Source: Candidatus Equimonas faecalis
GTDB taxonomy: Bacteria; Bacteroidota; Bacteroidia; Bacteroidales; Bacteroidaceae
NCBI GenBank assembly: GCA_018066245.1
Contig: JAGHRT010000042.1
Coordinates: forward strand, 1-52,319
DNA: 52,319 nt
Reading direction: 5' to 3'
Each line of letters begins with the position of its first letter. Within the stretch, counting starts at the first letter, position 1. The notes below the pieces were generated by a model. It did not search any database and was not told the DNA's origin. It saw only the letters and a list, made by a program, of their open reading frames with translations. The position numbers and the translations under genes were made by a program. Shown here in pieces: positions 10,631-48,948 of the stretch.

Positions 10631-10713
10631 GTTTATAGAGTAGTCGTTTTTAGTCCGCCGAAAGGAAAAATTAGTCCGCCGAGAGTTTTTCGTGGTCTAT
10701 AGGCTGGTTTTTC
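10631..10713. repeat. 21-bp modular repeat array (4 units)
   Basis: Four units tile without gaps. The landmark GTC/GGTC falls at 10652, 10673 and 10694 (period 21), after a degenerate TTTATAGAGTAG unit. Cores are TATAGAG, CCGCCGA (twice) and CTATAGG, with GAAAAA or TTTTTC tracts between them. It fills much of the spacer between two leftward genes. Confidence 0.85.
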
Positions 10714-10798
10714 CTCATACGCTGAGCGTTCCGTCTGCTCCAGAGACTAAGTCCTCCCCTTCTTGGGGGAAGCGGGACGAGCCCCCGGCAAGGGCGGC

Positions 10799-13114
10799 CT
10801 ACTTCAGGAGCTTGCGGCCGTCCTGTATGTAGCAGCCACGGCTGGTGGCCGGCACGCAGCGTCCGCTCAGGTCGCGGATGACAGCCTGACCGCCGCCAAG
10901 GGTGGAGAGCGGCGTGCCGATGCCCTCTACGGGGCGCACGACGTTCACCGTGCGGTAGGTGGTGTAGGTGGCAAGGCGGTCGTTGATTTGTATGCCCTTG
11001 ATAAGTCCGGTCTTGTTGTAGTTCTTGAGTTCGAGTTCTACGCGGTCGGGATAGACGTAAAGCATCAGGGCCTGCACGACGGTGGGGCAGTCGGAAGGAT
11101 CGCCCGTGTCGATGGTGTTGTAGTAGTAGCGGAGGGAGCCCATGAATATGGAGAAGAAGGAGGGGTCGCCGGCCACGACGGGCTTGTCCGTAACTTCTTC
11201 AAGCGTCCAGAGGCAGTCGGCCACCGTGCCGGCGCTTACGGAGATTGAACCCGTAGAGCTGACGCTGCCCAAGTCGAAGGCGTTGACGCGCTGGGAGGAG
11301 CCGCCGGGGCTGTAGGTCGTGCCGGTAACGGCGTAGTATTTGCCGCTGTACTCCGTGGCAATGATGTATGTGCCGCCCACTTCGGGCTTGTCCGCTGCGG
11401 TAAGGGTGAGCGTGGCTGCGGAGGGGTCGGCCACTTTCATCAGGCGGAAGGCGGTGGATTGCCCGTTGCCGCTGAAACGCTTGCTGCCGGTGGAGAAATA
11501 GAGCTTGCTACCGTTGATGGACGAGGGAGCGCCTGCGATGTCTATGGTGAAGAGAGCGGCGGAGGAAAGGGTGATTGTTGCCGTGGCGGGTGCCGACGTG
11601 GTGGTGAGGTTGTAGGAATCGAAGCCGAGATACTTGCCGTCGGCGACGTGGCGTATGAAGAACTTGCCGGAGGTAAAGGTGCCGTCGTCGGGCTTGTCCT
11701 CCTGCTGTTCCTTCACGGCGAGAGTCCAGAGGCAGTTGCCGCCGGAGAGGGGCGTGATGGCGGACAGGTCCTCACTCACGGCCACTTGGACGCTGTTCAT
11801 GCGCTGCGAGGAGCTGCCGGGGCTGTACACGTCGTTGGCCAGGGCGTAGTAACCGGAAATATACTTGGACACGATGTAATAGGCCTTGCCGTCCTCCGGC
11901 TTAGTGATGCGTTGGCCGGCCTCGTCGTATAGCATGAACGTGGTGGCGTCGCCTCGGCTGTAGCGCCCGTTACTGCCTATGTGGAGGGAGCGGGTACTTC
12001 CGTCAAAGGTCATGCTGAGCGTGAACTCGCCGTCGGCACCGGAGATGGCATAGGTCTGCTCAGAGGTGCCCACGTTCAGGTTGTAGGAGTCCACAATCAG
12101 GTACTTCCTGCAAGCAGCGTTGTAGAGCGAAATGTTGGCGGCATACTTCTCCACAGGCTCTCCCTCGGAGTTATAGACGGGGCCGTCCACGTGGGTGGCA
12201 TCGGTGGAGGAGATGACGTTGCCGTTGGTGTCGTAGAGCGTAACGCGCTGGGAGGTGTGCGTAGTGCTGTAGGCGCTGTCATGACCGTGGTCGTGGCCGT
12301 AGAGCATTATGAGGTTGGGGTGTTCGCAGAGTGCAGACTTGAGGGCCTGGGTGGCGGCATTGTCTTTCATACCCTTGCCGGAGTTGAGGCTGTTGCTGTC
12401 GGAGAAAGGCACATGGAGGCAGAAGAACACCGTCTTGTCGGGGTCGTCGGCATAAATCGCATTGAGCTTGTTCTTGACCCACTGCACGCTCTCGGTGGAG
12501 TACTGATAGTCCCAGGCATACTGGAAGAAGTGCTTGCCGGCATTAAGGACAACGAAGTCGAAGCCATAGAGGTTGTAGTGGTAGGCGGCGAGCAGCCGTG
12601 TCTTGCCCAGGGAGCCGTTGTCGGCCTCCTCGTAGAAGCAGTCGGAGTCGGCGAGGGGTCCCATGTCCTGCTGCATGGCTTGCTCGAAGGGTATATAGGC
12701 GTTGTAGGGCTTGGGGATGGCGTCGAAATTGGCCACCTCATACTCGTGGTTGCCGGCGACGTAGAGCACGCAGGGCTGCTTTCCCTCGGGGAAGAAGGAG
12801 CGCATGGTCTCGGTCATGCGCTGATGCACCATCTTGGAGTTGGCCTCCTTGATGGTCTTGTCGCTCTCGGTGTCACCGCCGAAGACTATGACGTCCACAT
12901 TCTCCTCCTGCTGCCAACGCTTGAGCACCTCGGTCAGCGAGGAGCGCACGGTGATGTCGCTGACTTTGCCGGAAGAGGGCGTTATCATATTGTTCATGTT
13001 GTGTACGTCGCTCACGCAGCCGATTGTCAGCAGGGGCTTTTCTTCGGTCTGGGCGAAAGTGGTGAGGCTCCCTGCGGAGAGGGTGAGCATCAGGGCAAGT
13101 AAGTGTTTTTTCAT
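10799..13114 (-). CDS. Secreted calcineurin-like metallophosphoesterase with sorting-type tail
   Basis: 771 aa; signal peptide about 1-21. The N-terminal half is a metallophosphoesterase: SDVH (about 35), GGD (about 79), GNHE (about 121), HVPF (about 234) and GHDH (about 274) supply the usual two-metal ligands. The C-terminal half has two similar beta units, recognisable by GYYALANDVYSPGSSSQR and KYYAVTGTTYSPGGSSQR. It ends VIRDLSGRCVPATSRG...DGRKLLK, a sorting-type tail. A secreted phosphatase or phosphodiesterase is likely; the substrate is unknown. It starts 45 bp after the EEP gene, so the two probably share a transcript. Confidence 0.87.
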   Translation of the reverse strand: MKKHLLALMLTLSAGSLTTFAQTEEKPLLTIGCVSDVHNMNNMITPSSGKVSDITVRSSLTEVLKRWQQEENVDVIVFGGDTESDKTIKEANSKMVHQRMTETMRSFFPEGKQPCVLYVAGNHEYEVANFDAIPKPYNAYIPFEQAMQQDMGPLADSDCFYEEADNGSLGKTRLLAAYHYNLYGFDFVVLNAGKHFFQYAWDYQYSTESVQWVKNKLNAIYADDPDKTVFFCLHVPFSDSNSLNSGKGMKDNAATQALKSALCEHPNLIMLYGHDHGHDSAYSTTHTSQRVTLYDTNGNVISSTDATHVDGPVYNSEGEPVEKYAANISLYNAACRKYLIVDSYNLNVGTSEQTYAISGADGEFTLSMTFDGSTRSLHIGSNGRYSRGDATTFMLYDEAGQRITKPEDGKAYYIVSKYISGYYALANDVYSPGSSSQRMNSVQVAVSEDLSAITPLSGGNCLWTLAVKEQQEDKPDDGTFTSGKFFIRHVADGKYLGFDSYNLTTTSAPATATITLSSAALFTIDIAGAPSSINGSKLYFSTGSKRFSGNGQSTAFRLMKVADPSAATLTLTAADKPEVGGTYIIATEYSGKYYAVTGTTYSPGGSSQRVNAFDLGSVSSTGSISVSAGTVADCLWTLEEVTDKPVVAGDPSFFSIFMGSLRYYYNTIDTGDPSDCPTVVQALMLYVYPDRVELELKNYNKTGLIKGIQINDRLATYTTYRTVNVVRPVEGIGTPLSTLGGGQAVIRDLSGRCVPATSRGCYIQDGRKLLK

Positions 13115-13159
13115 AAGGCTAATGTTTTTAGGGTTTAGGGGTTGAGTAAGGATTCGGGG

Positions 13160-14339: not shown

Positions 14340-14451
14340 GTGTATGGAGTAGTGCGATTTAGTCTATAGAGTAGGATTTCGCAGTCTATGGAGTAGTGCG
14401 AATTAGTCTATGGAGTAGTGCGGATTAGTCTATGGAGTAGGATTTCGGATT
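14340..14451. repeat. 22-bp modular repeat array (5 units)
   Basis: AGTC starts at 14361, 14383, 14405 and 14427, a strict 22-bp period, preceded by one degenerate unit. All cores are of the CTATAGA/CTATGGA type with TAGTGCG or TAGGATTTCG between them. The last unit runs into the stop codon of the rhomboid gene (14450-14452). Confidence 0.9.
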
Positions 14452-15221: not shown

Positions 15222-16772
15222 TCAGCGGGTTGTGTTAAGAGGAAGGAGGAATGTAGAGAGGGGCCAGCCCTGGGCGTTGGTTACGTTGGCCCGGGTGAAG
15301 GGTTGCCAGGCGTAGCGCACGGCCACGGGGCGGAGGCCGGCGGGCAGTTGCAAGGCCAGTCGGCCGGGGCGGTCGGAGGGCTGGGGGTGTGCCCGGCCGT
15401 CCAGCACGAGGGGCTGGGCCTCTATCCACTGGCCGTCGGGGGCCTGCACTTCAAACATGCGGGGCGTGGCCTTGGTGAATCGCAGGGGCTGGCCGGCGCA
15501 ATCCAGCGTAAGGCGGCCCTTGTCCAGCGTCCAGCCCGTGGGGGCGTAGGGCAGGATGGCCGGCTGCGGCCTGTGGTAGGCGCCGTGGAGGGCCAGCGCG
15601 GCGAGGCGCGTGCCTATGGGCCGCTTCGTGCGGGGGTGGACATCGAGCGAATCGCCGTAGTCGGAGGAAATGGCCATCCAGGTGCGGGACAGGCTTTCGG
15701 CAAGGCGGCGCTGCGAATCGCGGAACTCGGGCCACGTCAGGCGGGGCGCGATGCTGCTGAGCTGTACCATAAGGAAGGGCAGCGTGCCGTCGGGGCTGCG
15801 CAGCGTGCGGCGCCAGTCGGCCAGCATGTGGGTGAAGAGGCGCTCGTGCAGGGCTACGTCCTGCGCGTTGCTTTCGCCTTGATACCAGATTACGCCCCGG
15901 AAGGCGAAGGGGCTGAGGGGTTCGAGGCCGGCCTGGTAGAGATAGGCGGGCCGGTAGGGATGGAGGTGGCCGTCGGAGCCAGCGTTTTCGCATCCGCGCT
16001 TCCGCACCCAGTCCTGTACGAGTGGATTGTTCGGCCAGTCGGCCAGCATGTCGGGGTGGTGGCTTTGGAGGGTCTGGGGGCTGGTCCACGACTCGGCGGG
16101 GGAGCCTCCCACGGCGTTGAGTACGAGGCCGATGTGGAGGTCGGGGAGCGAGTCGGCCAGAGCGCGGCCAAAGTAGTAGGCAATGGCGGAGAAGCGGCTG
16201 GCCTCGGCCTCGGAGCAGAGCGTCCAGCCTGCGGAGGTGTCGAAGTAGCGGAAGGCATCGACTTCGGCCAGGGCCTCGTCGCTCCAGCGGGGCGGCGTGG
16301 TGAGCCAGCGTGCCTTCATGTTGAAGAGGTGGAGGCGGGGGTGCGCCGTGCCTTGGGCCAGATAGTCGCCGCCGTCGGGAGCGGGGCCGTTGGGGTCGGA
16401 GGCGGCAGCGTGGCGGCGGAACTCGGCATCGTTGCTCAGGGTGAACTCCATGTTGCTCTGGCCGGAGCAGAGCCACACCTCGCCCAGATACACGCGGCGG
16501 TAGGTCTCGCTGCCCATTTGCAGGGTGTAGGGGCCGCCGGCGGGCAGGGCGGGCAGCCAGGCCTCCCAACGACCTCGGCTGTCGGCACGCACCTCGGTGC
16601 TGAGGCCGGCCAGCGCCACCTTGACGCGCTCGCCGGCATGTGCCCGGCCCTGGAAGTGGAGAGGTGCGCCCTGCTGGAGCACCATATCGTCGGAGTAGAG
16701 ACGCAGGTCTTGCGCACAGGCGCACGCGCAGGCGCACGCAAATATAATAAGGAGTAGGAACTTATTTTTCAT
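15222..16772 (-). CDS. Sialate O-acetylesterase (SASA) family, secreted
   Basis: 516 aa. It contains CSGQSNMEF (catalytic Ser, about residue 95) and GVIWYQGESNAQ, the two hallmark SASA motifs. The enzyme removes O-acetyl groups from sialic acids or plant glycans, exposing them to glycosidases. The N-terminus is odd: LLLIIFACACACACAQ, a run of Ala-Cys pairs made by a 6-bp DNA repeat. It could be cleaved as an ordinary signal peptide before Gln or as a lipoprotein at the first Cys. The start overlaps the end of the permease gene by 11 bp, indicating a shared transcript. Confidence 0.9.
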   Translation of the reverse strand: MKNKFLLLIIFACACACACAQDLRLYSDDMVLQQGAPLHFQGRAHAGERVKVALAGLSTEVRADSRGRWEAWLPALPAGGPYTLQMGSETYRRVYLGEVWLCSGQSNMEFTLSNDAEFRRHAAASDPNGPAPDGGDYLAQGTAHPRLHLFNMKARWLTTPPRWSDEALAEVDAFRYFDTSAGWTLCSEAEASRFSAIAYYFGRALADSLPDLHIGLVLNAVGGSPAESWTSPQTLQSHHPDMLADWPNNPLVQDWVRKRGCENAGSDGHLHPYRPAYLYQAGLEPLSPFAFRGVIWYQGESNAQDVALHERLFTHMLADWRRTLRSPDGTLPFLMVQLSSIAPRLTWPEFRDSQRRLAESLSRTWMAISSDYGDSLDVHPRTKRPIGTRLAALALHGAYHRPQPAILPYAPTGWTLDKGRLTLDCAGQPLRFTKATPRMFEVQAPDGQWIEAQPLVLDGRAHPQPSDRPGRLALQLPAGLRPVAVRYAWQPFTRANVTNAQGWPLSTFLLPLNTTR

Positions 16773-18354
16773 CTTGGGAGGGGGCTTTACTGTTGAGGGT
16801 GGAGTGGCGGTAGCCGTAGCCGAAGTAGATGGCGGCGCCTGCGAGGAGCCACAGGCCGAGGCTTATCCAGGCGCTGAGCGGCATTGCAAACATGAACACC
16901 AGGCTGATGGCGATGCTCAGCAGGGGGATGAAGGGCACCCACGGCGTGCGGAAGGTGGCTTCCGGCTGAGCGCTCTCACCTTGTCCGCCGACAGTTTCGC
17001 CTAGTCCGCCGACAGTTTTTTCTGCCGTATAGGGTAGTTTTCCCTCCTCTATAGGAGAGGGAGCGGCAGCGGGTAGGGCGGCACCGGCTTGCGCTTTGAG
17101 GGCGGCGGCTTTCCGGTCGCGGCGGTGAAGCACTATTACGATGTAGCACACTATCGTAAAGGCAAACAGCGTGCCAATGGAGCAAAGTTCGCCTGCCGCC
17201 TCGCCGGGCATCAGTCCCGAGAAGAGGGCAATGACCAGAGCCAGGATAATGCTGCCCAGCCACGGGGTGCGCCACGCGGGATGTATGCGGCCAAACACTT
17301 TCGGCAGGACACCGTCGCGGCTCATACTCATAAAAATGCGGCTCTGTGCCATCATCAGCACCAGCACTACGCTGCTGTAGCCCATCAGTATGGCCAGCAC
17401 AATCAGGCGGTTGAGCCACGGCCACGGCAAGTGGGCTATGGCCACCGACACGGGGGCTATGCTGTCCGCGCCCTGGAACTCATGGTAGTTGGCCACGCCT
17501 GTGAGCACGTAGCCGAACAGCACATACACCACGGCCACCACCACGAGCGAGCCCAATATGCCGATGGGCATACTGCGGGCGGGATTCTTCGTCTCCTGAG
17601 CCATCGCGCTCACCGAATCAAAGCCCAGGAAAGCCACGAAGGCGACACTCGCGCCACGCAGCACGCCCGAGACGCCGAAACTCCCGAACTCGCCCGTGTT
17701 GGCGGGCAGGTAGGGCGTAAGGTTCTCGGACTTGACGTAACGCCAGCCTAAGACGACAAACAGGAATATAATGCCCAGCTTCAGCGCCACAAGGATATTG
17801 TTGGCCATCGCACTGGTCTGTGCGCCGCGCACTACGAAAACGGCCATCACGCCTGCGATGAACATGGCGGGCAGGTCGATAATGCCGCCTTCGGCAGGGG
17901 TGCTGGTGAGCAGGTCGGGCAGCGTGATGCCCGCATCACGCAGGAGCACCACGAAGTACTGGCTCCACGACGTACACACCAGCGCTGCGCCCAACACGTA
18001 CTCCACCACGAGGCTCCAGCCTACCAGCCACGCGGGCAGCTCGCCTATGGTGGTGTAGGCGTAGGCGTAGGCAGAACCGCTTACCGGCAGGCGGCTGGCA
18101 AGTTCGGCGTAGCAAAGTCCCGTCAGGCTACAGATAATGGCGGCCAGAATAAAGGAAAAGGTGATTGCCGGGCCGGTGTTGTAGGCTGCGATAGGGCCTG
18201 TGATGCTGAACAGGCCGGCTCCTACGATGCAGCCCACCCCGAGGATGATGAGGCGGAAGGGTGTGAACGTGCGGCGGAGCGCAGGGCCGGCGCCAGGCTG
18301 GGTTTCGCCAAGGAACTGCCGGGGCGATTTTGTGCGGAACAGGGAGTGGGGCAT
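16762..18354 (-). CDS. APC-superfamily amino acid permease
   Basis: 530 aa, about twelve membrane segments. The start region (ILGVGCIVGAGLFSITG) is the conserved APC TM1 substrate motif, and SGSAYAYAYTTIGE is typical of cationic amino acid transporter-like members. The substrate is uncertain. The long loop before the last two helices (about 408-470) is a Pro/Ala-rich stretch followed by a 7-residue periodic insert, TVGGLGE-TVGGQGE. This insert is encoded by an intragenic copy of the 21-bp repeat family (16981-17056). It leaves the frame and the terminal helices intact. The gene starts two bases after sufE ends. Confidence 0.92.
   Translation of the reverse strand: MPHSLFRTKSPRQFLGETQPGAGPALRRTFTPFRLIILGVGCIVGAGLFSITGPIAAYNTGPAITFSFILAAIICSLTGLCYAELASRLPVSGSAYAYAYTTIGELPAWLVGWSLVVEYVLGAALVCTSWSQYFVVLLRDAGITLPDLLTSTPAEGGIIDLPAMFIAGVMAVFVVRGAQTSAMANNILVALKLGIIFLFVVLGWRYVKSENLTPYLPANTGEFGSFGVSGVLRGASVAFVAFLGFDSVSAMAQETKNPARSMPIGILGSLVVVAVVYVLFGYVLTGVANYHEFQGADSIAPVSVAIAHLPWPWLNRLIVLAILMGYSSVVLVLMMAQSRIFMSMSRDGVLPKVFGRIHPAWRTPWLGSIILALVIALFSGLMPGEAAGELCSIGTLFAFTIVCYIVIVLHRRDRKAAALKAQAGAALPAAAPSPIEEGKLPYTAEKTVGGLGETVGGQGESAQPEATFRTPWVPFIPLLSIAISLVFMFAMPLSAWISLGLWLLAGAAIYFGYGYRHSTLNSKAPSQDEK
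16981..17056. repeat. Intragenic 21-bp repeat array inside the permease gene
   Basis: GTCCGCCGACAG occurs at 16983 and 17004 (21 bp apart), followed by CGTATAGGG and CTATAGGAG units about 21 and 22 bp further on. These are the same cores and T-tracts as the intergenic arrays. On the coding strand they translate to a hydrophilic 7-residue repeat. Confidence 0.9.
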
Positions 18355-19749: not shown

Positions 19750-19872
19750 TTTTAGTCTATAGGAGAGTTTGGCGTAGTCCGCCGATAGGGGAAATTAGTC
19801 CGCCGATAGTTTTCGTTAGTCTATAGGGGAGTCCGGCGCTGTCCGCCGGGAGTTTGGCGCAGCCTGTAGGCG
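19750..19872. repeat. 21/22-bp modular repeat array (6 units)
   Basis: GTC/GCC landmarks fall at 19755, 19777, 19798, 19819, 19841 and 19862. Cores alternate CTATAGG, CCGCCGA, CCGCCGA, CTATAGG, CCGCCGG and a degenerate CTGTAGG. It occupies most of the 195-bp spacer between the dipeptidase fusion and the glutaminyl cyclase gene. Confidence 0.92.
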
Positions 19873-19938: not shown

Positions 19939-21834
19939 TCAGAAGGTGGCCGCCTCAAAGAGCACGCGTCGGAAGTTGTCGCCCCAGATGCGGCAGATGT
20001 CGTTGGCGCCATAGCCGGCCTGGATGAGACGCTCGGTAATGTGCATCATGTCGGAGGCATCGCGGAGGCCCGGCACGCCGCCGTCGCCGTCGAAGTCGGA
20101 GCCTATGCCCACGCCCTCGGTGCCGCAGACGTCAATCATGTGCAGGAGGTGCTGCATGAACGTGTCGATGGTGGCCTCGCCCTGCGGGTGGAGGAACCAC
20201 GGGTACATGGTACACTGCACCACGCCGCCTTTGTCGGCGATGGCCCTCAGCAGGTCGTCGGGCATATTCCTGGGGTGGTCGCACAGGGCGCGGCAGCAGG
20301 TGTGGGTGGCCGCTATGGGGCGGCGTGCCGCTTCGAGGACGCTGCGCACGGTCCGGTCGCTGGCGTGGCTTACGTCTATGAGCAGTCCGCAGCGGTCCAT
20401 TTCCTCCACGACCTCGCGCCCGAAGGGTGAGAGGCCGCCCCACTCGGCTTGGGGCTCGCCCTGCCTGGGGCGTGCGGAGTCGCAGATGTCGTTGTGGCCG
20501 TTGTGGCACAGGGTGATGTAGGCCGCGCCGAGGTCGCGGTAGTGGCGGACGAGGCTGATGTCGCGCCCCAGGGCGTAGCCGTTCTCAATGGCGAAGTGTA
20601 CCTGGAGGGTGCCGAGGCCCTGCCGGAGCACGTCGGAGAGTTGCTCCCGGGTGGTTTCCACCTGACGGCGGGCGGCGGCGTAGCCCTCGGCGGTGCGCGG
20701 GCCTTGCGGGATGTAGCTGACCATGAACACTTCGTTGAGGTGGCCTTCGGCGGCCTTTACCGCATCGACGAGGCAGTGGGGGTTGCGGTGCCGGAGGTCG
20801 GGGCGGAAGTCGGGACTGTCGGGCTGCGAGGTCATCGCAGGGAAGGTCATGGGCGTGTCGCAGTGGGAATCAAGCGTGAGGATTGAGGCGTGAAGCTCAA
20901 GGGCCTGGCAGTAGAGCCGAGCGGCGGCCACGAACTGGCTGAAGAGGCGGCGGGAGAGCGTGCTCTGGGGCAGGCATTCGGGATGCCACTGCACACCCAG
21001 GAGGAAGGACTCGCCGACGTTGCCCTCGATGGCCTCCACTACGCCGTCGGGGGCCAGGGCCGAGACGTGCATGAGGGGGCCCGGCGTGAGCACGGCCTGA
21101 TGATGGAAGGAATTGACGCAGGGCTGCGCCGTGCCGTCTGCCCACGTCTGCACGCCCTCGGCGGAGGGGGCAAAACTGTCGGCGGACTTGTGCGAACTGT
21201 CGGCGGAGTAGGAAAAACTGTCGGCGGACTTGTTTTCACTCGCCTTAGGGGAGGGCGCAGGGGCGGCGAACACGCCGCTGGCGTCGGTAATCCGGAGGGT
21301 ATGGGTGGGGCAGTGGCGCGGAGCAGTCTGGCTGTGCTTCAGGCGGGTCTGCCCGTCGGGCGGCGCAGGGGCTTGGGCAGCGATGTCCTGCGCCACGGTG
21401 CCGCCAAGTGCCGCTGCCATAACCTGACATCCCCGGCAGATGCCCATCACGGGCACGTTGCGGCTGTGGGCCATCCGGCAGAGCACGAGTTCGTAGCCGT
21501 CGCGCGGGGGGCAGATGCCGCCGAGCTGGGGCAAGGGTTCCTCCCCCAGCCACAAGGGGTTGAGGTCGCCGCCGCCGGAAAGCAGGAGGCCGTCAATCTG
21601 TTCCAGCTGGCGCACAATCTCGTCGGGGCTGTCGGTGGGCGCAAGCAGGAGGGGCGTGCCGCCGGCCCGGCGCACGGAGTCGTAGTAAGCCGTGGCCAGT
21701 TCGGCCCCCTTATCGCCGAGGTTGGCGGTTATACCGATGACGGGGACTTGTTCAGGCCCGGAAGAGGCTATACGGCGGGCAAATGCCTCGTCGCAGGCGC
21801 GGGTGGCGGCGGAAAGGGAGAAAGCGTCAGTCAT
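19939..21834 (-). CDS. Fused class I glutamine amidotransferase (C26) and M19 dipeptidase
   Basis: 631 aa from the ATG at 21834, chosen because it overlaps the previous stop by 8 bp; an upstream in-frame ATG at 21873 would overlap by 47. Residues about 30-310 form a C26/PuuD-like domain with nucleophile Cys133 (GICRGC), SFHHQAV and GVQWHPE (His284, Glu286). Residues about 318-631 form a membrane dipeptidase domain: DSHCDTP (H324, D326), AIENGYALG, DVSHASDRT, ATHTCCRAL and GIGSDFDGDGG. Together they could hydrolyse gamma-glutamyl amides and then dipeptides; this pairing is inferred. No signal peptide is seen, so it is probably cytoplasmic. A loop at about 199-228 is built from the 21-bp repeat (KSADSFS-YSADSSH-KSADSFA). 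Confidence 0.88.
   Translation of the reverse strand: MTDAFSLSAATRACDEAFARRIASSGPEQVPVIGITANLGDKGAELATAYYDSVRRAGGTPLLLAPTDSPDEIVRQLEQIDGLLLSGGGDLNPLWLGEEPLPQLGGICPPRDGYELVLCRMAHSRNVPVMGICRGCQVMAAALGGTVAQDIAAQAPAPPDGQTRLKHSQTAPRHCPTHTLRITDASGVFAAPAPSPKASENKSADSFSYSADSSHKSADSFAPSAEGVQTWADGTAQPCVNSFHHQAVLTPGPLMHVSALAPDGVVEAIEGNVGESFLLGVQWHPECLPQSTLSRRLFSQFVAAARLYCQALELHASILTLDSHCDTPMTFPAMTSQPDSPDFRPDLRHRNPHCLVDAVKAAEGHLNEVFMVSYIPQGPRTAEGYAAARRQVETTREQLSDVLRQGLGTLQVHFAIENGYALGRDISLVRHYRDLGAAYITLCHNGHNDICDSARPRQGEPQAEWGGLSPFGREVVEEMDRCGLLIDVSHASDRTVRSVLEAARRPIAATHTCCRALCDHPRNMPDDLLRAIADKGGVVQCTMYPWFLHPQGEATIDTFMQHLLHMIDVCGTEGVGIGSDFDGDGGVPGLRDASDMMHITERLIQAGYGANDICRIWGDNFRRVLFEAATF
21158..21236. 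repeat. Intragenic 21-bp repeat array inside the C26/M19 gene
   Basis: Four units of GGCGGA(C/G) spaced exactly 21 bp (landmarks 21166, 21187, 21208, 21229), three of them as CTGTCGGCGGA. This is the reverse orientation of the permease copy relative to the plus strand. It encodes a Ser/Ala/Asp-rich 7-residue repeat in a loop before the SFHHQAV strand of the amidotransferase domain. Confidence 0.9.
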
Positions 21835-22114
21835 GGCGGCGGGGATTTTTAGGGAACCAGCCTTTGCGCACACGTTCCTTCTGCTCGAACAGTTCGCCTA
21901 TACTCCAGAATGCGCAGAACCCTATGATGGCCAGCAGCGTGCTCCAGAAGAGGTCGGCCAGCAGCAGGGCCGCCACGCAGCAGCCCGCCCCCACGATGAG
22001 GAACACGGGCCAGGGGCGCGTGCCGAAGTAGTATTCGGTCTTGATGACTATGGGGTGGAATGCTCCTATCAGCAGGAAGGTGAGCAGTCCCAGCAGGAGG
22101 CCTTGCAGGTTCAT
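21827..22114 (-). CDS. DUF4491 small membrane protein
   Basis: 95 aa with about three hydrophobic segments. FHPIVIKTEYYFGT, LFWSTLLAIIGF and WSIGELFEQKERVRKGWFP are the family's conserved blocks. Function unknown; it is widespread in Bacteroidetes. The ATG shares one base with the stop of the upstream lrp-type gene (TAATG), showing translational coupling. The in-frame TTG at 22120 lies inside the neighbour and was not used. Confidence 0.9.
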   Translation of the reverse strand: MNLQGLLLGLLTFLLIGAFHPIVIKTEYYFGTRPWPVFLIVGAGCCVAALLLADLFWSTLLAIIGFCAFWSIGELFEQKERVRKGWFPKNPRRHD

Positions 22115-22629
22115 TAGCAATCGATGTTGTCGTCGGGCATGGCCTTGGGCGTGCGGCGGCGGCGCGTCTCGCTGGGCTCACAGAGGTCGAGAGGGAGGGC
22201 ACGCTGGAAATTCATGCAAAGGGAGATGAGCGTCTCGGTCCTGCTTAGGCCGTCGATCTTGCTCATGATAGACAGGATTCGGGCAAGGTCGGCATTGTTT
22301 CGGCAATAGACGCGGAGCAAGAGGCCGTAGGCCCCGGTGGTGTTGTGGCACTCCACGACTTCGGGGATGGCCTTCATGGCTTCCTCCACGGCTTCGGCTT
22401 TGGAGGCTTCGGTAAAGTTCACGCCAATGAAGGTGCAGGTGTCGTAGCCCAGGCTTTGGGGATTTACCTGAAAGCCGGCGTTGGCGATAACGCCGCGCTG
22501 GAAGAGTTTCTCCACGCGCTGATGGATGGCCGCACGGCTGACGCCGCATTGCTCGGCGATGTCCTTGAACGGCGTGCGGGCGTTCGAGGTGAGAGCTTCA
22601 AGGATTTGCTGATCGAGAATGTCTATCAT
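22114..22629 (-). CDS. Lrp/AsnC family transcriptional regulator
   Basis: 171 aa from the ATG at 22629 (MIDILDQQILEAL), chosen over 22665 because the winged helix-turn-helix of the family begins at once. The HTH is about residues 5-60 (DIAEQCGVSRAAIHQRVEKL). The RAM ligand-binding domain (about 65-145) contains VVECHNTTGAYGLLLRVYC. Members sense amino acids and bind DNA as octamers. It heads a cluster with amino-acid-related genes (amidotransferase/dipeptidase, APC permease), which fits control of amino acid or peptide use. The target sites are not identified. Confidence 0.93.
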   Translation of the reverse strand: MIDILDQQILEALTSNARTPFKDIAEQCGVSRAAIHQRVEKLFQRGVIANAGFQVNPQSLGYDTCTFIGVNFTEASKAEAVEEAMKAIPEVVECHNTTGAYGLLLRVYCRNNADLARILSIMSKIDGLSRTETLISLCMNFQRALPLDLCEPSETRRRRTPKAMPDDNIDC

Positions 22630-22720
22630 GCTGTTTTGGGATTTGAGATTAGTAATTTGATGCAAAGCATTAGTTGTTATCGTTTTACCGACAGGCCGCC
22701 TTTGCGGCTGCCCGGCTGTT

Positions 22721-22818
22721 CTTAGTCCGCCGATAGTTTTTCGTAGTCCGCCGATAGGGGAAATTAGTCTATAGGAGCGTTTTTCGCAGTCCGCCGAGAG
22801 TTTTTCCTGCCGCAGGGG
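22721..22818. repeat. 21/22-bp modular repeat array (5 units)
   Basis: GTC landmarks at 22725, 22746, 22767 and 22789, then a GCCGCAGGGG unit near 22809. Cores run CCGCCGA, CCGCCGA, CTATAGG, CCGCCGA and CGCAGGG. It passes directly into the palindromic companion module. Confidence 0.92.
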
Positions 22819-34892: not shown

Positions 34893-34904
34893 ATATATAA
34901 AAAT

Positions 34905-37409
34905 ATGTCAGAGCAGGAAATTGCACTCCAGCAAGGCCAGCAAACCGCGCCCGTACTTCCGATGGAAGACAACGACGGCCTGAAAATCACAGAACTGCTT
35001 GCCAAATTCATCCACAACTGGAAATGGTTCGCCATCTCAGCCGCCATTTGCCTCCTCGTAGCCACGATTCACATCAAGCGCACCACGCCCATCTACACCC
35101 GCAGTGCGCAAATCCTCATCAAAGAAGAAGGCACACGCGGAGCCTACGGCGGCAACGTCGATTGGTTCTCCCAGCTCGGCGTAGGCACCGCAGCCGTAAC
35201 CGTTCAGAACGAACTCGTAGCCATACAGTCGCCCGCCACATTCGTAGAAGTGGTCGAGCGCCTCGGTCTCAACACCACCTACCAGCTTGAGCACCGCTGG
35301 CACAACGTACCCCTCTACGGCAACAACCTTCCCGTGGCCCTCTACTTCCACGACCTCGGCAAAAACGAAGTGGCCTCCCTCACGATGACACTCACCGACA
35401 AGGGCACCGTCGTATTCTCCGACTTCCAGGGACCACGCGTAGGCGACGACGACATAAAGCTGGAAGCCCACGTCGGCCAGACCATCAAGTCGCCACTGGG
35501 CCGCATCCGCATCAGCGCAGGCCCCGCCGCCACCGAACTCACCAGCCTCAGCAGCGACCGCGTCATACGCGTGCAGCACACCACCGTAGAGGCCGCTGCC
35601 AAGCGGGCCGCCGCAGGCTTGAGCGCCAGCCTCAACTCCAAGGAGAACTCCATAATCGACCTCACCTACCGCGACGCTAACACGCAGCGGGCCGAGGATA
35701 TTCTCAACGCCCTCATTCTGGCTTACAACGACGCCTGGGTAAAGGACAAGAACCAGATGACCGAGGCCACCAACGAGTTTATTATGGAGCGCCTGAAGGT
35801 GATTCAGGGCGAGCTTGAAAGCGTTGATGACGAGATAAGCACCTACAAGAGCAGCAACCTCGTAACCGATCCCACCGCCCTCGCCGGCCTTTACGTCAAT
35901 GACGCCAACGAGGCAGGCAAGCAGGCCGCCAATCTCAACAACCAGCTGAACATGGCGAAGTACGTGCGCTCCTTCCTCACGAGCGAAGCCCACAGGGACG
36001 ACCCGCTCCCCGTGAACATCGGCTTGGGCAACACCGGTATTGAGAGCCAGTTCATGCAGTACAACGAGGTGCTCCTTGAGCGCAACCGCCTGCTGGGCAG
36101 TACGGGCGCAGAGAGCAACTTGGTGAAGGACCGTAACCAGATTCTGGCGCAGCAGCGGCAGTCTATCATTTCGAGCATCGACAATCAGATCAACCTGCTG
36201 ACCACGCAGCTCTCCTCCGTGGAGCAGAACCAGCGCAAGGCCATCAGCGGCATCGCAAGCAGCCCCGAGCAGACGCGCTTCCTCGGCACGGTGTCGCGCC
36301 AGCTGAAGGTGAAGGAAGCCCTCTATATATTCCTGCTTCAGAAGCGTGAGGAAAACGAGCTTTCCCTTGCCTTCACCGCCTACAACACCCGAGTAATCGC
36401 ACCTCCCCACGGCAGCGGATCCCCTGTCAGCCCGCAGAGCCAGCGCATCCTGCTCATCGCCCTGCTCATCGCTCTGGCGGTGCCCGCCTGCATTATGTAC
36501 CTGATTGAACAGACCGATACGAAAGTGCGCGGCAAGAAGGACGTAGAGAAGCTCAGCGCACCGTTCATCGGCGAAATCCCGCTGGTGGGCAAGAAGAAGG
36601 AAGAGTTCCTGCGCCCGTGGCTTGAACGGCTGGGCATCATCAGCAAGAAGGTGGAGCAGGAGACTGCCCGCAAGATTTTGGTGAAGCCCCACAGCCGAAA
36701 CCTCATCAACGAAGCCTTCCGCGTGGTCCGCACCAACATCGACTTCATGGTGGGCGAGAAGAGCGAGGGCGGCAAGCTGATAATGGTAACCAGCGCCAAC
36801 CCCGGCTCAGGCAAGACCTTCATCAGCGGCAACCTGGCCGCGTCGTTTGCCGTCAGGGGCAAGAAGGTGCTACTCGTCGATTTCGACCTGCGCCGAGCTT
36901 CGGCCTCGCTCTATGTGCCCGCCACTAAGAAAGGCGTGAGCAGCTACCTCAGCGGCAAGGAGGCCGACTGGCGCTCACTGGTACAGCCCGTGGAAGGCCA
37001 CGACAACATGTCCGTGCTGCCCGTAGGCACGTTGCCCCCCAACCCCTCCGAGCTACTTTCCACGCCGCGCACCGCCCAATTCCTCCAGGAGCTGCGCGAA
37101 AGCTACGATATGGTGTTCATCGACTGCCCGCCGGTAGAAATCGTGGCCGACGCGGCCATCATCTCCAAGTTTATGGACCAGACAATTTTCGTAGTGCGCG
37201 TGGAACTTATGGAGCGCGACATGCTGCCCGCCATAGAGAACTACTACAAGCAGGGCAAGTTCAACGGCCTCTCCCTCCTGCTCAACGGCAGCGAGACCAC
37301 CCGCAGCCGCTACGGCTACCGCTACGGCTATGCCTACAGCTACGGCTACGGCTATGGCTACGGCAAGCACAGCAAGACGGAGAACTACTACCACGAGGAC
37401 GAGCAGTAG
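34905..37409 (+). CDS. Wzc-type polysaccharide co-polymerase with BY tyrosine kinase domain
   Basis: 834 aa. The N-terminal Wzz domain begins with a membrane helix (about 43-60) and a YTRSAQILIKEEG strand. Long coiled-coil segments (about 270-490) lead to a second helix (about 510-530). The cytoplasmic kinase has Walker A ANPGSGKTFISG (about 630), A' VLLVDFDLRRAS and Walker B DMVFIDCPPVEIVADAA. The tail is a striking Tyr cluster (RYGYRYGYAYSYGYGYGYG, then ENYYHEDEQ), the autophosphorylation site of this class. Cycling between phosphorylated and dephosphorylated states sets polymer length and export. The phosphatase gene follows 15 bp later. Confidence 0.94.
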   Translation: MSEQEIALQQGQQTAPVLPMEDNDGLKITELLAKFIHNWKWFAISAAICLLVATIHIKRTTPIYTRSAQILIKEEGTRGAYGGNVDWFSQLGVGTAAVTVQNELVAIQSPATFVEVVERLGLNTTYQLEHRWHNVPLYGNNLPVALYFHDLGKNEVASLTMTLTDKGTVVFSDFQGPRVGDDDIKLEAHVGQTIKSPLGRIRISAGPAATELTSLSSDRVIRVQHTTVEAAAKRAAAGLSASLNSKENSIIDLTYRDANTQRAEDILNALILAYNDAWVKDKNQMTEATNEFIMERLKVIQGELESVDDEISTYKSSNLVTDPTALAGLYVNDANEAGKQAANLNNQLNMAKYVRSFLTSEAHRDDPLPVNIGLGNTGIESQFMQYNEVLLERNRLLGSTGAESNLVKDRNQILAQQRQSIISSIDNQINLLTTQLSSVEQNQRKAISGIASSPEQTRFLGTVSRQLKVKEALYIFLLQKREENELSLAFTAYNTRVIAPPHGSGSPVSPQSQRILLIALLIALAVPACIMYLIEQTDTKVRGKKDVEKLSAPFIGEIPLVGKKKEEFLRPWLERLGIISKKVEQETARKILVKPHSRNLINEAFRVVRTNIDFMVGEKSEGGKLIMVTSANPGSGKTFISGNLAASFAVRGKKVLLVDFDLRRASASLYVPATKKGVSSYLSGKEADWRSLVQPVEGHDNMSVLPVGTLPPNPSELLSTPRTAQFLQELRESYDMVFIDCPPVEIVADAAIISKFMDQTIFVVRVELMERDMLPAIENYYKQGKFNGLSLLLNGSETTRSRYGYRYGYAYSYGYGYGYGKHSKTENYYHEDEQ

Positions 37410-37424
37410 TCCCATTCCGGCGCC

Positions 37425-38132
37425 ATGTGGCTCTTCAACAGCAAGACATCTTTCGCCGACAGTGGCATCCTTCGGGGTGCCACTGATTGGCATTGCCACC
37501 TCCTGCCCGGCGTGGACGACGGCATCAAGACACTCCCCGAGACCCTCGACGCGCTGGCCCGCTACGAGGAGTTGGGCATCAAGCGCGTGTGGTTCACGCC
37601 GCACATTATGGAAGACATGCCCAACCGCCCCGATGACCTGCGCCGCCTTTTCAGCAGCGTGCAGGCGGCCTATGGAGGCACGGTGGAGCTCCGGCTGGCC
37701 GCAGAGCACATGCTGGACAACCTTTTTGAAGAGCGGCTGGCCGCCAGGGAGGTGCTGCCCATCGGCGAGGAGGGCGACCTGCTGCTGGTGGAGACCTCCT
37801 ACTTCACCCCCCCCTACGACTTCTGGGGCGTGCTGGGCCGCATACAGTCGGCCGGCTACCACCCCCTGCTGGCCCACCCCGAGCGCTACCTCTACATGGA
37901 CCCCGACGACTATCGCCGCCTCCACGACATGGGCGTGCTGCTCCAGCTCAACCTCCCCTCACTCGCGGGAGCCTACGGCCCTGAATCCAAAGCACGAGCC
38001 AAGCGCCTCCTGAAGCTTGGCTACTACGCATTTAAGGGAACCGATACGCACCGAATAAGCGGCCTTATGAGAGTAGCGGGCGACAAGGGCGTAGAGAAAA
38101 GTTGCCTAAAACAAGTTGAAAACCTCCGATAG
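37425..38132 (+). CDS. PHP-type protein-tyrosine phosphatase (CpsB/YwqE-like)
   Basis: 235 aa. TDWHCHLLPGVDDG (H23, H25), FTPHIMED, LLAHPERY and FKGTDTHR supply the metal ligands of the PHP phosphatase fold. It removes phosphate from the Tyr tail of the BY-kinase encoded just upstream. It is the last gene of the operon, followed by a clear terminator. Confidence 0.93.
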   Translation: MWLFNSKTSFADSGILRGATDWHCHLLPGVDDGIKTLPETLDALARYEELGIKRVWFTPHIMEDMPNRPDDLRRLFSSVQAAYGGTVELRLAAEHMLDNLFEERLAAREVLPIGEEGDLLLVETSYFTPPYDFWGVLGRIQSAGYHPLLAHPERYLYMDPDDYRRLHDMGVLLQLNLPSLAGAYGPESKARAKRLLKLGYYAFKGTDTHRISGLMRVAGDKGVEKSCLKQVENLR

Positions 38133-38160
38133 AACAGCAAGTTACATCATAGCGACAGTG

Positions 38161-38190
38161 AAAAAGTTTCCCAAAACGGGAAACTTTTTT
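38161..38190 (+). terminator. Terminator of the polysaccharide export operon
   Basis: AAAAAGTTTCCC pairs with GGGAAACTTTTT around an AAAAC loop, ending in a run of T. A classical intrinsic terminator. Confidence 0.9.
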
Positions 38191-38221
38191 CGTTTATCCG
38201 TGATTTTTCTTGCCTTTTTAG

Positions 38222-38252
38222 TTGGCCATATCCCTACTTAGTCGTATCTTTG
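38222..38252 (+). promoter_or_regulatory. Promoter of nrdDG with long leader
   Basis: TTG (38222-38224), a spacer of about 20 nt and TATCTTTG (38245-38252). The ATG of nrdD is 244 bases downstream of the -7 box, so the transcript would have a leader of about 240 nt that contains the repeat array at 38330. Confidence 0.7.
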
Positions 38253-38329
38253 CACTCGGTTTGGGAGAAGCCGCAGGCGGACTGCGGGAAACCGCCCCGC
38301 TCCCCCGCCCCACTCCTCCATAAAACCGC

Positions 38330-38397
38330 ATATACTGTCCTATACGGCAGGAAAAATTAGTCCGCCGACAGGAAAAACCCTCTTATACGACAGTACG
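38330..38397. repeat. Modular repeat array in the nrdD leader (3 units)
   Basis: GTCCTATACGGCAGGAAAAA, TTAGTCCGCCGACAGGAAAAA and CCCTCTTATACGACAG follow at about 21-22 bp. The remainder of the 363-bp spacer 38133-38495 holds the terminator, the promoter and GC-rich sequence without a recognised riboswitch. Confidence 0.88.
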
Positions 38398-38495
38398 TAC
38401 TAATCTATATAATAAATAACAAAGCCCCAGCGGCAGCCCCCTCCGGCGGCGCGTCGCAAAGGCCCCTAACTACCCTAAACAACATAGCCCCTCCC

Positions 38496-40616
38496 ATGAG
38501 CTACGAGACTTTTCTAATCACAAAACGTGACGGGAGCACGGAAAGCTTCTCCCTCGACAAAATCAAGAGTGCCATACTGAAAGCCTTCGCCGCCGTAGGC
38601 GAACCCGTCAATGCCGAGCAGCTGGAGGCCCTCATCGGCCAGCTGCGCTTCTGCAACGGCATGAGCGTGGAAGACGTCCAGAACCAGATTGAAGTCGCCC
38701 TTATGCGCGAGCAGCACTTCAAGACGGCCAAAGCCTTCATGCTCTACCGCAAGCGCCGCGAGGAAGACCGCGAGACAGCCGACCGCCTGCGCTTCCTCAT
38801 CGACTACTGTGATGCAGCCAACGCCGCCAGCGGAAGCAAGTACGACTCCAACGCCAATGTGGAAAACAAAAACATAGCCACGCTCATCGGCGAACTGCCC
38901 AAGGGAGCCTTCCTCCGCCTGAACCGCCGCCTCATCTGCGACCGCATCCAGCAGATGTACGGCAAGGAACTGGCCGACCGCTACATGTACCTGCTCAAGC
39001 ACCACTTCATCTACAAGAACGACGAGACCTCCATCGCCCCCTACTGCGCCTCCATCACCATGTACCCCTGGTTGCTCGAAGGCACCAAGTCCATAGGCGG
39101 CAACAGTACGGCACCCACCAATCTCAAGTCGTTCTGCGGCGGCTTCGTAAACATGGTGTTCATCGTCAGCAGTATGCTGTCCGGAGCCTGCGCCACGCCC
39201 GAATTTCTCATGTACATGAGCCACTTCCTGGAGCTGGAATTTGGCGAGGACTACTACCTCCGTGCCGACGAGCAGGCCGACATCACCCTGCGCCGCCGCA
39301 CCATCGACAAGGTCATCACCGACTGCTTCGAGCAAATCGTCTATAGCATCAACCAGCCCACCGGCGCACGCAACTTCCAGTCCGTGTTCTGGAACATCTC
39401 CTACTACGACAAGTACTACTTCCAGAGCATTTTCGGCAACTTCTTTTTCCCCGACGGCACGCGCCCCCATTGGGAAGCCCTCTCCTGGCTTCAGAAGCGC
39501 TTCATGGCCTGGTTCAACAAGGAGCGCACCAAGACGGTGCTCACCTTCCCCGTCGAGACCATGGCGCTGCTGGTGGAAAACGGCGACTGCAAGGATCCTG
39601 AGTACGGCGACCTGACCGCCAAGATGTATGCCGACGGCCACAGCTTCTTCACCTACATGAGCGACAACGCCGACTCCCTCGCCTCATGCTGCCGCCTGCG
39701 CAACGAAATCCAGGACAACGGCTTCAGCTACACCCTGGGCGCCGGCGGCGTGAGCACCGGCTCCAAGAGCGTGCTCACGGTAAACCTCAACCGCTGCATC
39801 CAGCAGGCCACGCGCGAAGGCCGCTCCTACGTGGAATACCTCGGCGAAATCGTGGACATCTGCCATAAAGTACAACTTGCCTACAACGCGAACCTCATGT
39901 GGCTCAAGGAGAAAGGAATGCTTCCCCTATTCGACGCGGGCTACATCACCATAGGCCGCCAGTACCTCACCATAGGCGTAAACGGCCTCGTGGAAGCCGC
40001 CGAGAGCCTCGGCATGGACATCAGCGACAACGAGGAGTACTGCCATTTCGTGCAGAGCGTGCTGGGTATCGTGGAAAAGTACAACAAGCAATACCGCACC
40101 AAGGATGTGCTGTTCAACTGCGAGATGATTCCCGCCGAAAACGTGGGTGTGAAGCACGCCCGCTGGGACCGCGAAGACGGCTACTTCGTGCCGCGCGACT
40201 GCTACAACAGTTATTTCTACAAAGTCGAAGACCCCAACACCGACGTCATCGAAAAGTTCCGCTTGCACGGGCGTAAGTACGTGGAGCACCTCACCGGCGG
40301 CTCCGCCCTGCACTGCAATCTGGACGAGCACCTGTCCACGGGCCAGTATCGGCAGCTCCTGCGCGTGGCCGCCAAGGAAGGCACCAACTACTTCACCTTC
40401 AACATTCCCAACACCCTCTGCAACGACTGCGGCCACATAGACAAGCGCTACCTCAAGGCCTGCCCCTGCTGCCAGTCGGCCGACGTGGACTACCTCACCC
40501 GCATCATCGGCTACCTCAAGCGCGTCAGCAACTTCTCACTCGACCGCCAGAAAGAAGCCGCACGCCGCCACTACGGAGCCATCAAGCCCCAGCAGGTGGA
40601 AGCCGCACTCTCCTGA
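38496..40616 (+). CDS. nrdD: Anaerobic ribonucleoside-triphosphate reductase (class III)
   Basis: 706 aa. N-terminal ATP-cone (about 3-95, ITKRDGSTESFSLDKIKSAI) for allosteric control, a ten-stranded barrel core, a C-terminal zinc site CNDCG...CPCC (about 640-656) and the glycyl-radical loop near RIIGYLKRVSNFS (about 668-680). It reduces ribonucleotides to deoxyribonucleotides without oxygen, using a glycyl radical installed by NrdG, encoded 23 bp downstream. This shows anaerobic DNA synthesis. Confidence 0.96.
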   Translation: MSYETFLITKRDGSTESFSLDKIKSAILKAFAAVGEPVNAEQLEALIGQLRFCNGMSVEDVQNQIEVALMREQHFKTAKAFMLYRKRREEDRETADRLRFLIDYCDAANAASGSKYDSNANVENKNIATLIGELPKGAFLRLNRRLICDRIQQMYGKELADRYMYLLKHHFIYKNDETSIAPYCASITMYPWLLEGTKSIGGNSTAPTNLKSFCGGFVNMVFIVSSMLSGACATPEFLMYMSHFLELEFGEDYYLRADEQADITLRRRTIDKVITDCFEQIVYSINQPTGARNFQSVFWNISYYDKYYFQSIFGNFFFPDGTRPHWEALSWLQKRFMAWFNKERTKTVLTFPVETMALLVENGDCKDPEYGDLTAKMYADGHSFFTYMSDNADSLASCCRLRNEIQDNGFSYTLGAGGVSTGSKSVLTVNLNRCIQQATREGRSYVEYLGEIVDICHKVQLAYNANLMWLKEKGMLPLFDAGYITIGRQYLTIGVNGLVEAAESLGMDISDNEEYCHFVQSVLGIVEKYNKQYRTKDVLFNCEMIPAENVGVKHARWDREDGYFVPRDCYNSYFYKVEDPNTDVIEKFRLHGRKYVEHLTGGSALHCNLDEHLSTGQYRQLLRVAAKEGTNYFTFNIPNTLCNDCGHIDKRYLKACPCCQSADVDYLTRIIGYLKRVSNFSLDRQKEAARRHYGAIKPQQVEAALS

Positions 40617-41137: not shown

Positions 41138-41232
41138 ACACGGCAGTCCTATCCTATAGGGTGGCTTTTCCCATCCTATAGGATAATTTTTCCTACCCTA
41201 TACGGCAGGACCGCCTACCCTATACGACAGAT
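41138..41232. repeat. 22-bp modular repeat array (4-5 units)
   Basis: CTATA begins at 41154, 41176, 41198 and 41220, an exact 22-bp period. Cores run CTATAGGGT, CTATAGGAT, CTATACGGC and CTATACGAC. A CCGCCGACAG fragment at 41112 may be a fifth, displaced unit. It lies between nrdG and the AlkD-like gene. Confidence 0.92.
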
Positions 41233-41336
41233 TCCTCTCTCCGAGGCTCAGAATAAACGGACACTTGGCTAATTCGCGCAAAAAGCACGCCGGTTCCACG
41301 CCGGGGCAGCGTCCGGGCAATCAGAATACAGTACTC

Positions 41337-43608: not shown

Positions 43609-43702
43609 ACGAAAAACTACCCTATAGGATAGCCGGAACTATCGTATAGGGTAGTAAAAACGATTGTATGGAGTAGGAAAACCTACTGTACAGGGTAGCC
43701 GG
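43609..43702. repeat. 22-bp modular repeat array (4 units)
   Basis: Landmarks CTATAGG (43622), GTATAGG (43644), GTATGGA (43666) and GTACAGG (43688) are spaced exactly 22 bp. All units are of the TATAGG family, with GAAAAAC, GTAAAAAC or GAAAAAC linkers. The array ends about 10 bases from the stop codon of the protease gene. Confidence 0.92.
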
Positions 43703-48560: not shown

Positions 48561-48620
48561 CGGATGGGGTTGTTTTATAGGGGTTTGTAGTTTGTTGAAT
48601 TAGTCGGACTGTTATCGCGG

Positions 48621-48651
48621 CAAAGTTAGCAAGATTTGCACAATCCACAAA
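48621..48651 (-). promoter_or_regulatory. Promoter of the C10 protease gene
   Basis: TTTG (48648-48651), 19 nt and TAACTTTG (48621-48628) on the minus strand. The predicted leader is about 57 nt. Between 48652 and 48873 nothing else is seen. Confidence 0.82.
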
Positions 48652-48873
48652 GCGATGTGCGCTGATTTTGAGGAAAATTTTTCTTGAAACACGGAAAAGC
48701 GGAAGCACGGATAGCAAAACGGCGCATTCAAACGAAGTAATTTGACGTGTAGGGAAAACAAGTTTTCGCAGAAATGCGTGCCGTTTGCCCTCCTTGGAGG
48801 GAGAGGGTGCGCCCCTCTGCGCTCATGCCGCTTCGGGCCGGGTGGCCATGCCCTTTTGGGAGCCGGGCGGAAA

Positions 48874-48948
48874 TTAGTCCGCCGACGGGGAAAACTGTCG
48901 GCGGGCCGGGGCAAACTGTCGGCGGACTTGTTTTTCCTGTCGGCAGGG
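48874..48948. repeat. 21-bp modular repeat array (4 units)
   Basis: AGTCCGCCGACGGGGAAAA is followed by CTGTCGG units at 48895, 48916 and 48937 (exactly 21 bp apart). Cores are all of the CCGCCGA/TCGGCGG family, with a reversal of direction after the first unit, as in the array at 27416. Between 48949 and 49050 nothing else is recognised. Confidence 0.9.

Follow-up and report, generated by a model that had tools for sequence, protein, structure and literature searches.

Dispersed arrays of phased 21-22-bp repeats with species-private cores in Candidatus Equimonas faecalis and other Bacteroidales

Phased repeat arrays in the source genome

A 52,319-nucleotide stretch of Candidatus Equimonas faecalis DNA (JAGHRT010000042.1, hereafter the window), which is the entire contig C12 of the source genome (G000; 2,591,219 bases, 62 contigs, approximately 90% complete), contained short arrays of 15-bp and 16-bp blocks that were separated by a fixed 6-bp spacer and therefore recurred at about two turns of the DNA helix. 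Arrays of the same period built from different, species-private cores were found in several other Bacteroidales genomes. With a probability of roughly 0.42, these arrays are iteron-like docking platforms for a putative sequence-specific DNA-binding protein; in this reading their copies would be kept uniform in each species, and those between convergent genes would have been co-opted as terminators. The repeat class itself is real and well-ordered, a variant of dispersed bacterial repeats with private cores and a shared two-turn period, and there is a real chance that it is a new chromosome-wide binding system.

A first-pass annotation of the window had listed twelve arrays, and phased repeats were present at 12 of the 12 coordinates. 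Its description of one modular design with cassette-like cores and two-turn phasing was borne out. The annotation would have been undone by a chance-level motif frequency elsewhere in the genome, and the frequency was far above chance, as core A (AGTCCGCCGAYAG) occurred in 224 copies in the 2.59-Mb source genome compared to 1 for the pattern read backwards, while CTATRGAGTAG occurred in 30 copies compared to 0 for the reversed control. No match to a described repeat family with a known role, the other finding named as damaging to it, was found in the open-licence literature. The repeat observation was thus confirmed and is larger than had been supposed: the annotation had overlooked that the spacer is constant at 6 bp, that the range of unit numbers is narrow, that some arrays lie in genes and that each species has cores of its own.

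Block-and-spacer anatomy and number of units

Array anatomy was examined in the window together with 20 further stretches of the source genome (448,407 bases, 17% of the genome), in which genes were called by a simple script of our own with no curated annotation. Nearly all arrays in this sample were made up of two blocks, block A of 15 bp (five bases, CCGCC and usually GACAG or GATAG) and block B of 16 bp, a near-perfect palindrome centred on STATAS. The fixed spacing was observed directly: 165 of the 174 block pairs spaced 1-21 bp apart were separated by exactly 6 bp, compared to 1 of 10 in the reversed sequence, and the spacing held in every combination of block type and orientation. Both annotated periods, 21 and 22 bp, were therefore present, but the true constant is the spacer, which is joined to a 15-bp block in the one case and to a 16-bp block in the other. 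The GAAAAA or TTTTTC tract to which the cores had been described as joined was common but occupied 54 of the 165 spacers and so was not universal. Spacers recurred, with 68 canonical types among the 165. The arrays are not clustered regularly interspaced short palindromic repeats (CRISPR), as the annotation had stated, since the spacers are recurring 6-bp sequences instead of unique ones of approximately 30 bp, a conclusion reached without a cas-gene search.

Chains were defined as at least two blocks joined by 6-bp gaps, and their ends were extended by a weight matrix at thresholds of 1%, 2% or 5% false positives per step. Seventy-one chains were obtained, giving an array density of about 0.16 per kb, and they were dispersed over the chromosome. 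The strict A and B patterns overlook a CTATGG-type array at 14342-14441 of the window, and chain counts are lower bounds. The narrow unit number was directly apparent, as three, four and five units were present in 14, 31 and 18 of the 71 arrays at the 1% threshold compared to approximately 15, 10 and 7 under a geometric distribution with an equal mean. Arrays of three to five units accounted for 63 of the 71 at 1% false extension, compared to a geometric expectation of approximately 33, and for 61 of the 71 at 2%.

Blocks A and B were mixed in 28 of the 71 chains, forming a mosaic of units and linkers in both orientations like that of bacterial interspersed mosaic elements (BIMEs), and as in iteron arrays direct repeats followed one another at about two helical turns. 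Adjacent A-A units were ordered ++ in 30 cases, -- in 32, +- in 15 and -+ in 2. The A-tracts had been reported to flip around a core that does not, and while the flipping of the tracts was confirmed, the core flips too.

Common leader or tail flanks were not found, as the 11-mers located within 200 bp of at least four of the 61 intergenic arrays all came from one short module present at no more than seven arrays. A miniature inverted-repeat transposable element (MITE) with a leader and tail was rejected on these grounds. A palindromic module (GCCGCAGGTGCGGC) adjoined seven of the 61 intergenic arrays, and in one stretch of the source genome (L020, 3100-3420, contig C8) a 64-bp super-repeat fused array units with this module.

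Private cores at a shared period in related genomes

Core A was present in no more than two copies per genome in 300 genomes of the family, including 20 from the same genus. Relatives were first surveyed at 80 named Bacteroidales loci around argS, where exact repeats of at least 11 bp at lags of 12-40 were counted after the exclusion of simple repeats and of repeated events within 80 bp. Intergenic DNA gave 14 events at lags 21-22 compared to 10 over the other 27 lags (12 of the 80 loci), and the array cores differed among the loci. The recurrence of one period with different private cores was observed directly in several genomes. In the metagenome-assembled genome (MAG) S34M_St_61 (G301, locus L023), the core AGTCCTGAGCTT was present in 274 copies in 2.0 Mb compared to 0 for the reversed control, in no more than one copy in 15 other genomes and in no more than three copies in each of 118 genomes of a phylum search that included the genome of the window.

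Fourteen genomes were sampled more deeply, and 21 or 22 bp was the commonest repeat distance in five of them (G301, G304, G308, G311 and G015). Four units were present in 11 of the 24 arrays having at least two units in G301, G308, G304 and G311 combined, a count which excludes those at the ends of loci (8 in G301). No change in array length was detected between two loci that were 95% identical (L085 and L098), three units being present in both. Many contigs of G301 had an array at their start or end, and C3, C7, C10, C11, C29, C33, C35 and others began inside array cores, so that the arrays break short-read assemblies. Elements of other kinds were also noted in these genomes, including a MITE-like AGACCAACCCTATGGGGTTGTC repeat with a copy approximately 79 bp further on in at least six places (L118 300-9800, G043) and, in several spacers of G304 (L178 6748, L179 4431 and L029 6203), an inverted element whose CACTTCCTACACTTCCTACA arms are in 9-bp steps.

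The closest comparison was offered by two termite-gut Tannerellaceae MAGs, Cc175_bin27 (G434, L082) and Nc350_bin163 (G435, L083), which were 91% identical over 7.2 kb. Their arrays had a 21-bp unit consisting of a 14-bp palindrome (TTTCYGCGCGGAAA) and 7 bp. Core position 5 was C or T at 0.74/0.26 in G434 compared to 0.48/0.52 in G435, in a base profile that tallies both strands and includes the duplicate loci L271, L272 and L082 twice, which indicates a genome-wide shift of the core between the two. Without these duplicates, the distinct arrays of G435 had 10, 11, 11, 11, 12, 12 and 12 units and the nine distinct arrays of G434 had 9-16. In the one traceable spacer an array was present in both genomes, and two G434 contigs ended within this array. 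An empty site in G435 for the arrays of L253 and L256 was not found, their flanks not being found together, and the G435 places C8, C12 and C30 lay outside the sample. Among arrays within one genome of this pair, no flank 12-mer was common to at least three and the best register scored slightly above the others. Whole-array copying therefore does not explain the equal array size and was rejected as its source.

Placement relative to genes

Among spacers of at least 60 bp, chains were present in 27 of 87 between genes in ++ orientation, 18 of 62 in -- orientation, 7 of 19 between divergent genes and 7 of 15 between convergent genes. Spacers between closely packed genes had been described as lacking arrays, and in agreement with this a chain was present in 2 of 38 spacers of 60-99 bp compared to 57 of 143 spacers of 100-1999 bp. 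In 43 tandem cases the arrays were closer to the upstream stop codon than under random placement (85 vs 113 bp, p 0.007), while arrays no more than 40 bp from the next start were not clearly fewer than expected (9 vs 13, p 0.085).

Hairpin-forming A+A- junctions were directly seen to be enriched between convergent genes, occurring in six of seven convergent-spacer arrays compared to 9 of 64 elsewhere (Fisher p 0.0002), and they fit bidirectional terminators. RNA folding was better than in shuffled sequences for five of six sequences (z -4.2 to -7.2), namely the CTATRG array and all four of the arrays that were B-rich or of mixed orientation. The A+/B array at 22715-22815 folded no better than its shuffles (z +0.94). 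A terminator scan of window positions 20001-40000 gave 16 sites compared to 16.9 in shuffles, with a single array hairpin among them (27418-27449), and an Rfam scan of the window returned three tRNAs only and no family at the arrays.

The annotation had confined the arrays to intergenic spacers, and this did not hold, as two additional arrays (16980-17059 and 21155-21232) were observed within called genes of the window and 10 of the 71 chains lay at least 90% within called genes. Eight of these ten consisted solely of 21-bp A units, whose length preserves the reading frame, compared to 21 of the 61 chains in spacers (Fisher p 0.012). The clearest in-gene case was the gene at 19939-21834, a glutamine-amidotransferase/dipeptidase fusion matched in 44 of the 61 family genomes searched. 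Its array-bearing linker was 48-56 residues long compared to 8-14 amino acids in relatives, and the two halves of the gene were 24-42 bp apart in the six relatives measured (G048, G043, G022, G038, G026 and G010). The inserted peptide also matched the source genome at C39:91511-91669 (59% identity, E 1e-8) and C61:20603-20710 (53%, E 5e-4). The linker may be the product of gradual growth instead of a single insertion, and no exact empty site for it could be defined.

The docking reading and its rivals

In the docking reading, short rows of 14-16-bp blocks placed two helical turns apart would allow a protein to bind as a row along a single helix face. Each species would have its own core, with copies homogenised within the species and with protein specificity and core drifting together. 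The number of units would be kept near a species value (approximately 4 in the source genome and 10-12 in one Tannerellaceae genome) which would reflect the footprint of the complex. Units would be duplicated locally, flipped and swapped in register with the 6-bp spacer, and local duplication together with conversion would keep the private core uniform. Arrays would settle where they are harmless, that is in spacers and, mainly as frame-keeping 21-bp units, in genes, and those between convergent genes would be co-opted as bidirectional terminators. The return of the same two-turn period in unrelated sequences together with the narrow unit number points to a protein complex that reads one-face rows of sites. 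Consistent with this, G434 and G435 had an array at the same place despite the shifted base composition of the core, and the 21-bp period was found in this pair in addition to the five of 14 deeply sampled genomes. We infer the bound protein, selection on unit number and co-evolution of core and protein from these patterns, and the protein-binding array proposed in the annotation is likewise supported by repeat anatomy as a putative function.

Several observations weigh against docking. Coding DNA of the 80 argS loci gave five events at lag 21 and two at lag 22 compared to 16 over the other 27 lags, and 28 loci from other orders of the class gave three events at lags 21-22 compared to 10 over the remaining lags (27 again). 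A restriction to Bacteroidales is thus not shown and the repeat class may reach beyond the order; 12 loci outside the class gave zero events at any lag and were uninformative. The 14 deeply sampled genomes were chosen partly since their first locus had a lag-21/22 event, and nine of them, including P. vulgatus (G315), X. ruminicola (G316) and T. forsythia (G310), did not have 21 or 22 bp as the clear top distance. Two-unit and four-unit arrays were equally common in G301 (5 and 5 of 15), all 13 arrays of G015 were single or paired, and at 5% false extension (threshold 0.95) arrays of three to five units fell to 50 of 71 in the source genome. Adjacent spacers were more alike than random (mean Hamming distance 2.68 vs 3.83) and one-type arrays were in excess (29 A-only and 14 B-only vs 13.8 and 5.1 expected), and local duplication alone would yield both. 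The period could be set by the copying machine instead of by binding, and the bound protein is a putative one, with binding read from the anatomy of the arrays.

A close rival, and a serious possibility, is a neutral or selfish modular minisatellite, a Bacteroidales counterpart of BIMEs in which units would spread by slippage, by gene conversion and by switching of the template at short inverted arms, with no dedicated binding protein, and copying would set the period. The alikeness of adjacent spacers and the one-type excess favour it, as do the in-gene chains with their bias towards frame-keeping A units, the flips of core and spacer that stay in register and the concerted core shift between G434 and G435. 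Pure slippage, however, predicts neither a unit number far narrower than the geometric law nor the repeated return of unrelated cores to 21-22 bp, and the shared leader and tail were not found. The self-propagating minisatellite suggested by the annotation fares similarly, since in-gene arrays and homogenised cores fit some spread but the narrow unit number and flanks common to no more than seven of 61 arrays do not. Its suggestion of curved DNA fits the A-tracts of the source genome but does not extend to the class, as the spacers or linkers of G308 and G434 are not A-tracts, and curvature was rejected as the common feature. It is improbable that the arrays are primarily RNA elements, that is hairpins in transcripts acting chiefly as terminators or 3'-end stabilisers. 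Such elements would agree with the convergent A+A- junctions, the good folding of most tested sequences and the proximity of tandem-spacer arrays to upstream stop codons, but arrays also occurred in divergent spacers and in genes, one tested array folded no better than its shuffles, and the terminator scan was not above shuffles. Block arms showed no covariation either within B (3.0 pairs vs 2.93 when shuffled) or across the spacer (2.45 vs 2.75); this suggests that the arrays are recognised as DNA and not as RNA, and selection on RNA structure was rejected on these grounds. RNA hairpins account for the convergent spacers only.

Uptake or self-recognition signals offer a further comparison. 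The DNA uptake sequence (DUS) dialects of Neisseriaceae are private 12-mers present in hundreds of copies, with inverted pairs between genes, and signals of this type would be spread by biased uptake and their inverted pairs reused as terminators. The private 12-13-mers at 224-274 copies per genome and the inverted pairs between convergent genes are alike, but two core types coexist in one genome and DUS are not known to form phased tandem arrays, and this explanation is very unlikely. Also very unlikely is an origin as repetitive extragenic palindromic (REP) or REPIN-type elements moved by a REP-associated tyrosine transposase (RAYT, Y1). The source genome does have three Y1 genes, and the available parts of the REP literature describe species-private dispersed short repeats as typical of RAYT systems (PMC3116915, PMC3733652). 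However, the flanks of these genes, covered over 0.6-0.8 kb on each side, contained no array and just two isolated one-mismatch matches, and the head-to-tail 21-22-bp order is unlike the REP dimers 20-100 bp apart described in those parts. Y1_Tnp matches were present in G000, G304 and G308, while G301, G311 and G015 had arrays and no such match and G310 and G316 had matches and no array signal in the sampled stretches. A RAYT/REPIN origin was rejected because of the array-free Y1 flanks and the arrays in genomes without a Y1 match. By eye, each of the three RAYT-like Y1 genes (L113 9380-9990, L114 9150-9830 and L115 7180-8000) sat amid its own inverted repeats, which were unlike the phased arrays. 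Plasmid or phage origin was also rejected, as one array compared with plasmids and phages and two core pairs compared with viral contigs gave no match.

Comparison with known repeat systems

Plasmid iterons are short direct repeats approximately two helical turns apart that are private to one system and bound by an initiator on one helix face at a single origin. The arrays described here share the short direct repeats, the two-turn distance and the private sequence, but are dispersed over the chromosome, invertible and have no known initiator. A description of the phased-array class was not found in the open-licence literature, where BrickBuilt of P. gingivalis, a 23-nt minisatellite within a MITE (PMC4596501), alone came close and is the nearest published relative found. 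In the portion of that account available, BrickBuilt likewise consists of species-specific tandem short repeats dispersed in a Bacteroidales chromosome, with a unit of approximately two turns (23 nt vs 21/22 bp here) and no protein known to bind. The same portion gives it 19 copies of 1 to 22.8 units, a leader and tail with terminal inverted repeats and an always intergenic location, whereas here there were 71 chains in 17% of the genome with a narrow unit number and a constant 6-bp spacer, units were flipped and cores swapped, a common leader or tail was not found and some arrays lay in genes. BIME, REP and REPIN elements are alike, as far as the sources consulted in part describe them, in being dispersed, species-private short palindromic mosaics, some in genes, with inverted pairs that fold as hairpins (PMC3116915, PMC3733652). 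In the same partial sources, most REPs occur singly or as inverted dimers and are associated with RAYT genes, in contrast to the head-to-tail rows at two turns found here, none of which was beside RAYT-like genes. Rickettsia palindromic elements and other in-gene repeats are similarly repeat DNA kept in frame inside genes, the Rickettsia elements being palindromes in the part of the source available (PMC3733652), and differ from these mostly intergenic two-turn rows.

The presence of two-turn arrays with private units in several Bacteroidales suggests docking sites for a fast-evolving DNA-binding system. It is possible, if on the unlikely side, that this amounts to a chromosome-wide system with hundreds of iteron-like arrays per genome, a fixed two-turn architecture, a species-specific unit number, a fast-evolving binding protein and a private addressing code for each species. 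Such a system might serve in nucleoid organisation or as a mark of self DNA, or might spread by drive. Unrelated cores that recur at the two-turn period with a narrow unit number, and share neither sequence nor location, suggest that a single mechanism underlies numerous private repeat families. Identification of a bound protein would reveal either a new class of nucleoid or self-recognition system in an order prominent in the gut, or a new means by which short repeats propagate along bacterial chromosomes. The arrays also matter for genome annotation because they break short-read assemblies and are likely terminators.

Array inventory of the window and minor observations

Fourteen arrays were located in the window. 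Four units ordered B A+ A+ B were present at 10628-10707, and the array at 14342-14441, outside the strict block patterns, consisted of five CTATRGAGTAG units at a 22-bp period. The array at 16980-17059 (A+ A+ B B) was within an amino-acid permease gene (16762-18354, minus strand; residues 432-459 of 530), and that at 21155-21232 (four A- units) was within the fusion gene at 19939-21834 (minus strand; residues 201-227). Between these two was an array of B A+ A+ B A+ at 19752-19853 with a weak sixth unit up to 19874. Arrays of A+ A+ B A+ and a weak fifth unit (22722-22822) and of B B B A+ B with weak end units (24837-24939) were each followed by a CTAG-rich module. At 27416-27472 the order was A+ A- A-, of which the A+A- pair formed a strong hairpin (RNA z -6.7). 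Further arrays were located at 30357-30437 (B B A- B), 33808-33888 (B B A+ B, the first two units weak), 38313-38415 (B B A+ B B, three units weak), 41149-41251 (B units and one weak A- unit), 43617-43698 (four B units) and 48874-48951 (A+ A- A- A-).

The CTAG-rich module (CTGGATATTCTAGATATACTAGTAGTTCTAG and its complement) adjoined three arrays of the window, at 22823-22870, 24940-24990 and 30320-30350, and its copies were 78-86% alike with part of the array included. A run of 19 G at 27489-27507, unusual for such a genome, lay beside a tRNA-Arg and an array. Two 64-nt copies that were 98% alike and 123 bp apart were located at 306-492 beside and overlapping a tRNA-Leu. Near the end of the open reading frame at 49043-52297, 42-bp in-frame tandem repeats (52107-52265) encoded an acidic 14-residue repeat.

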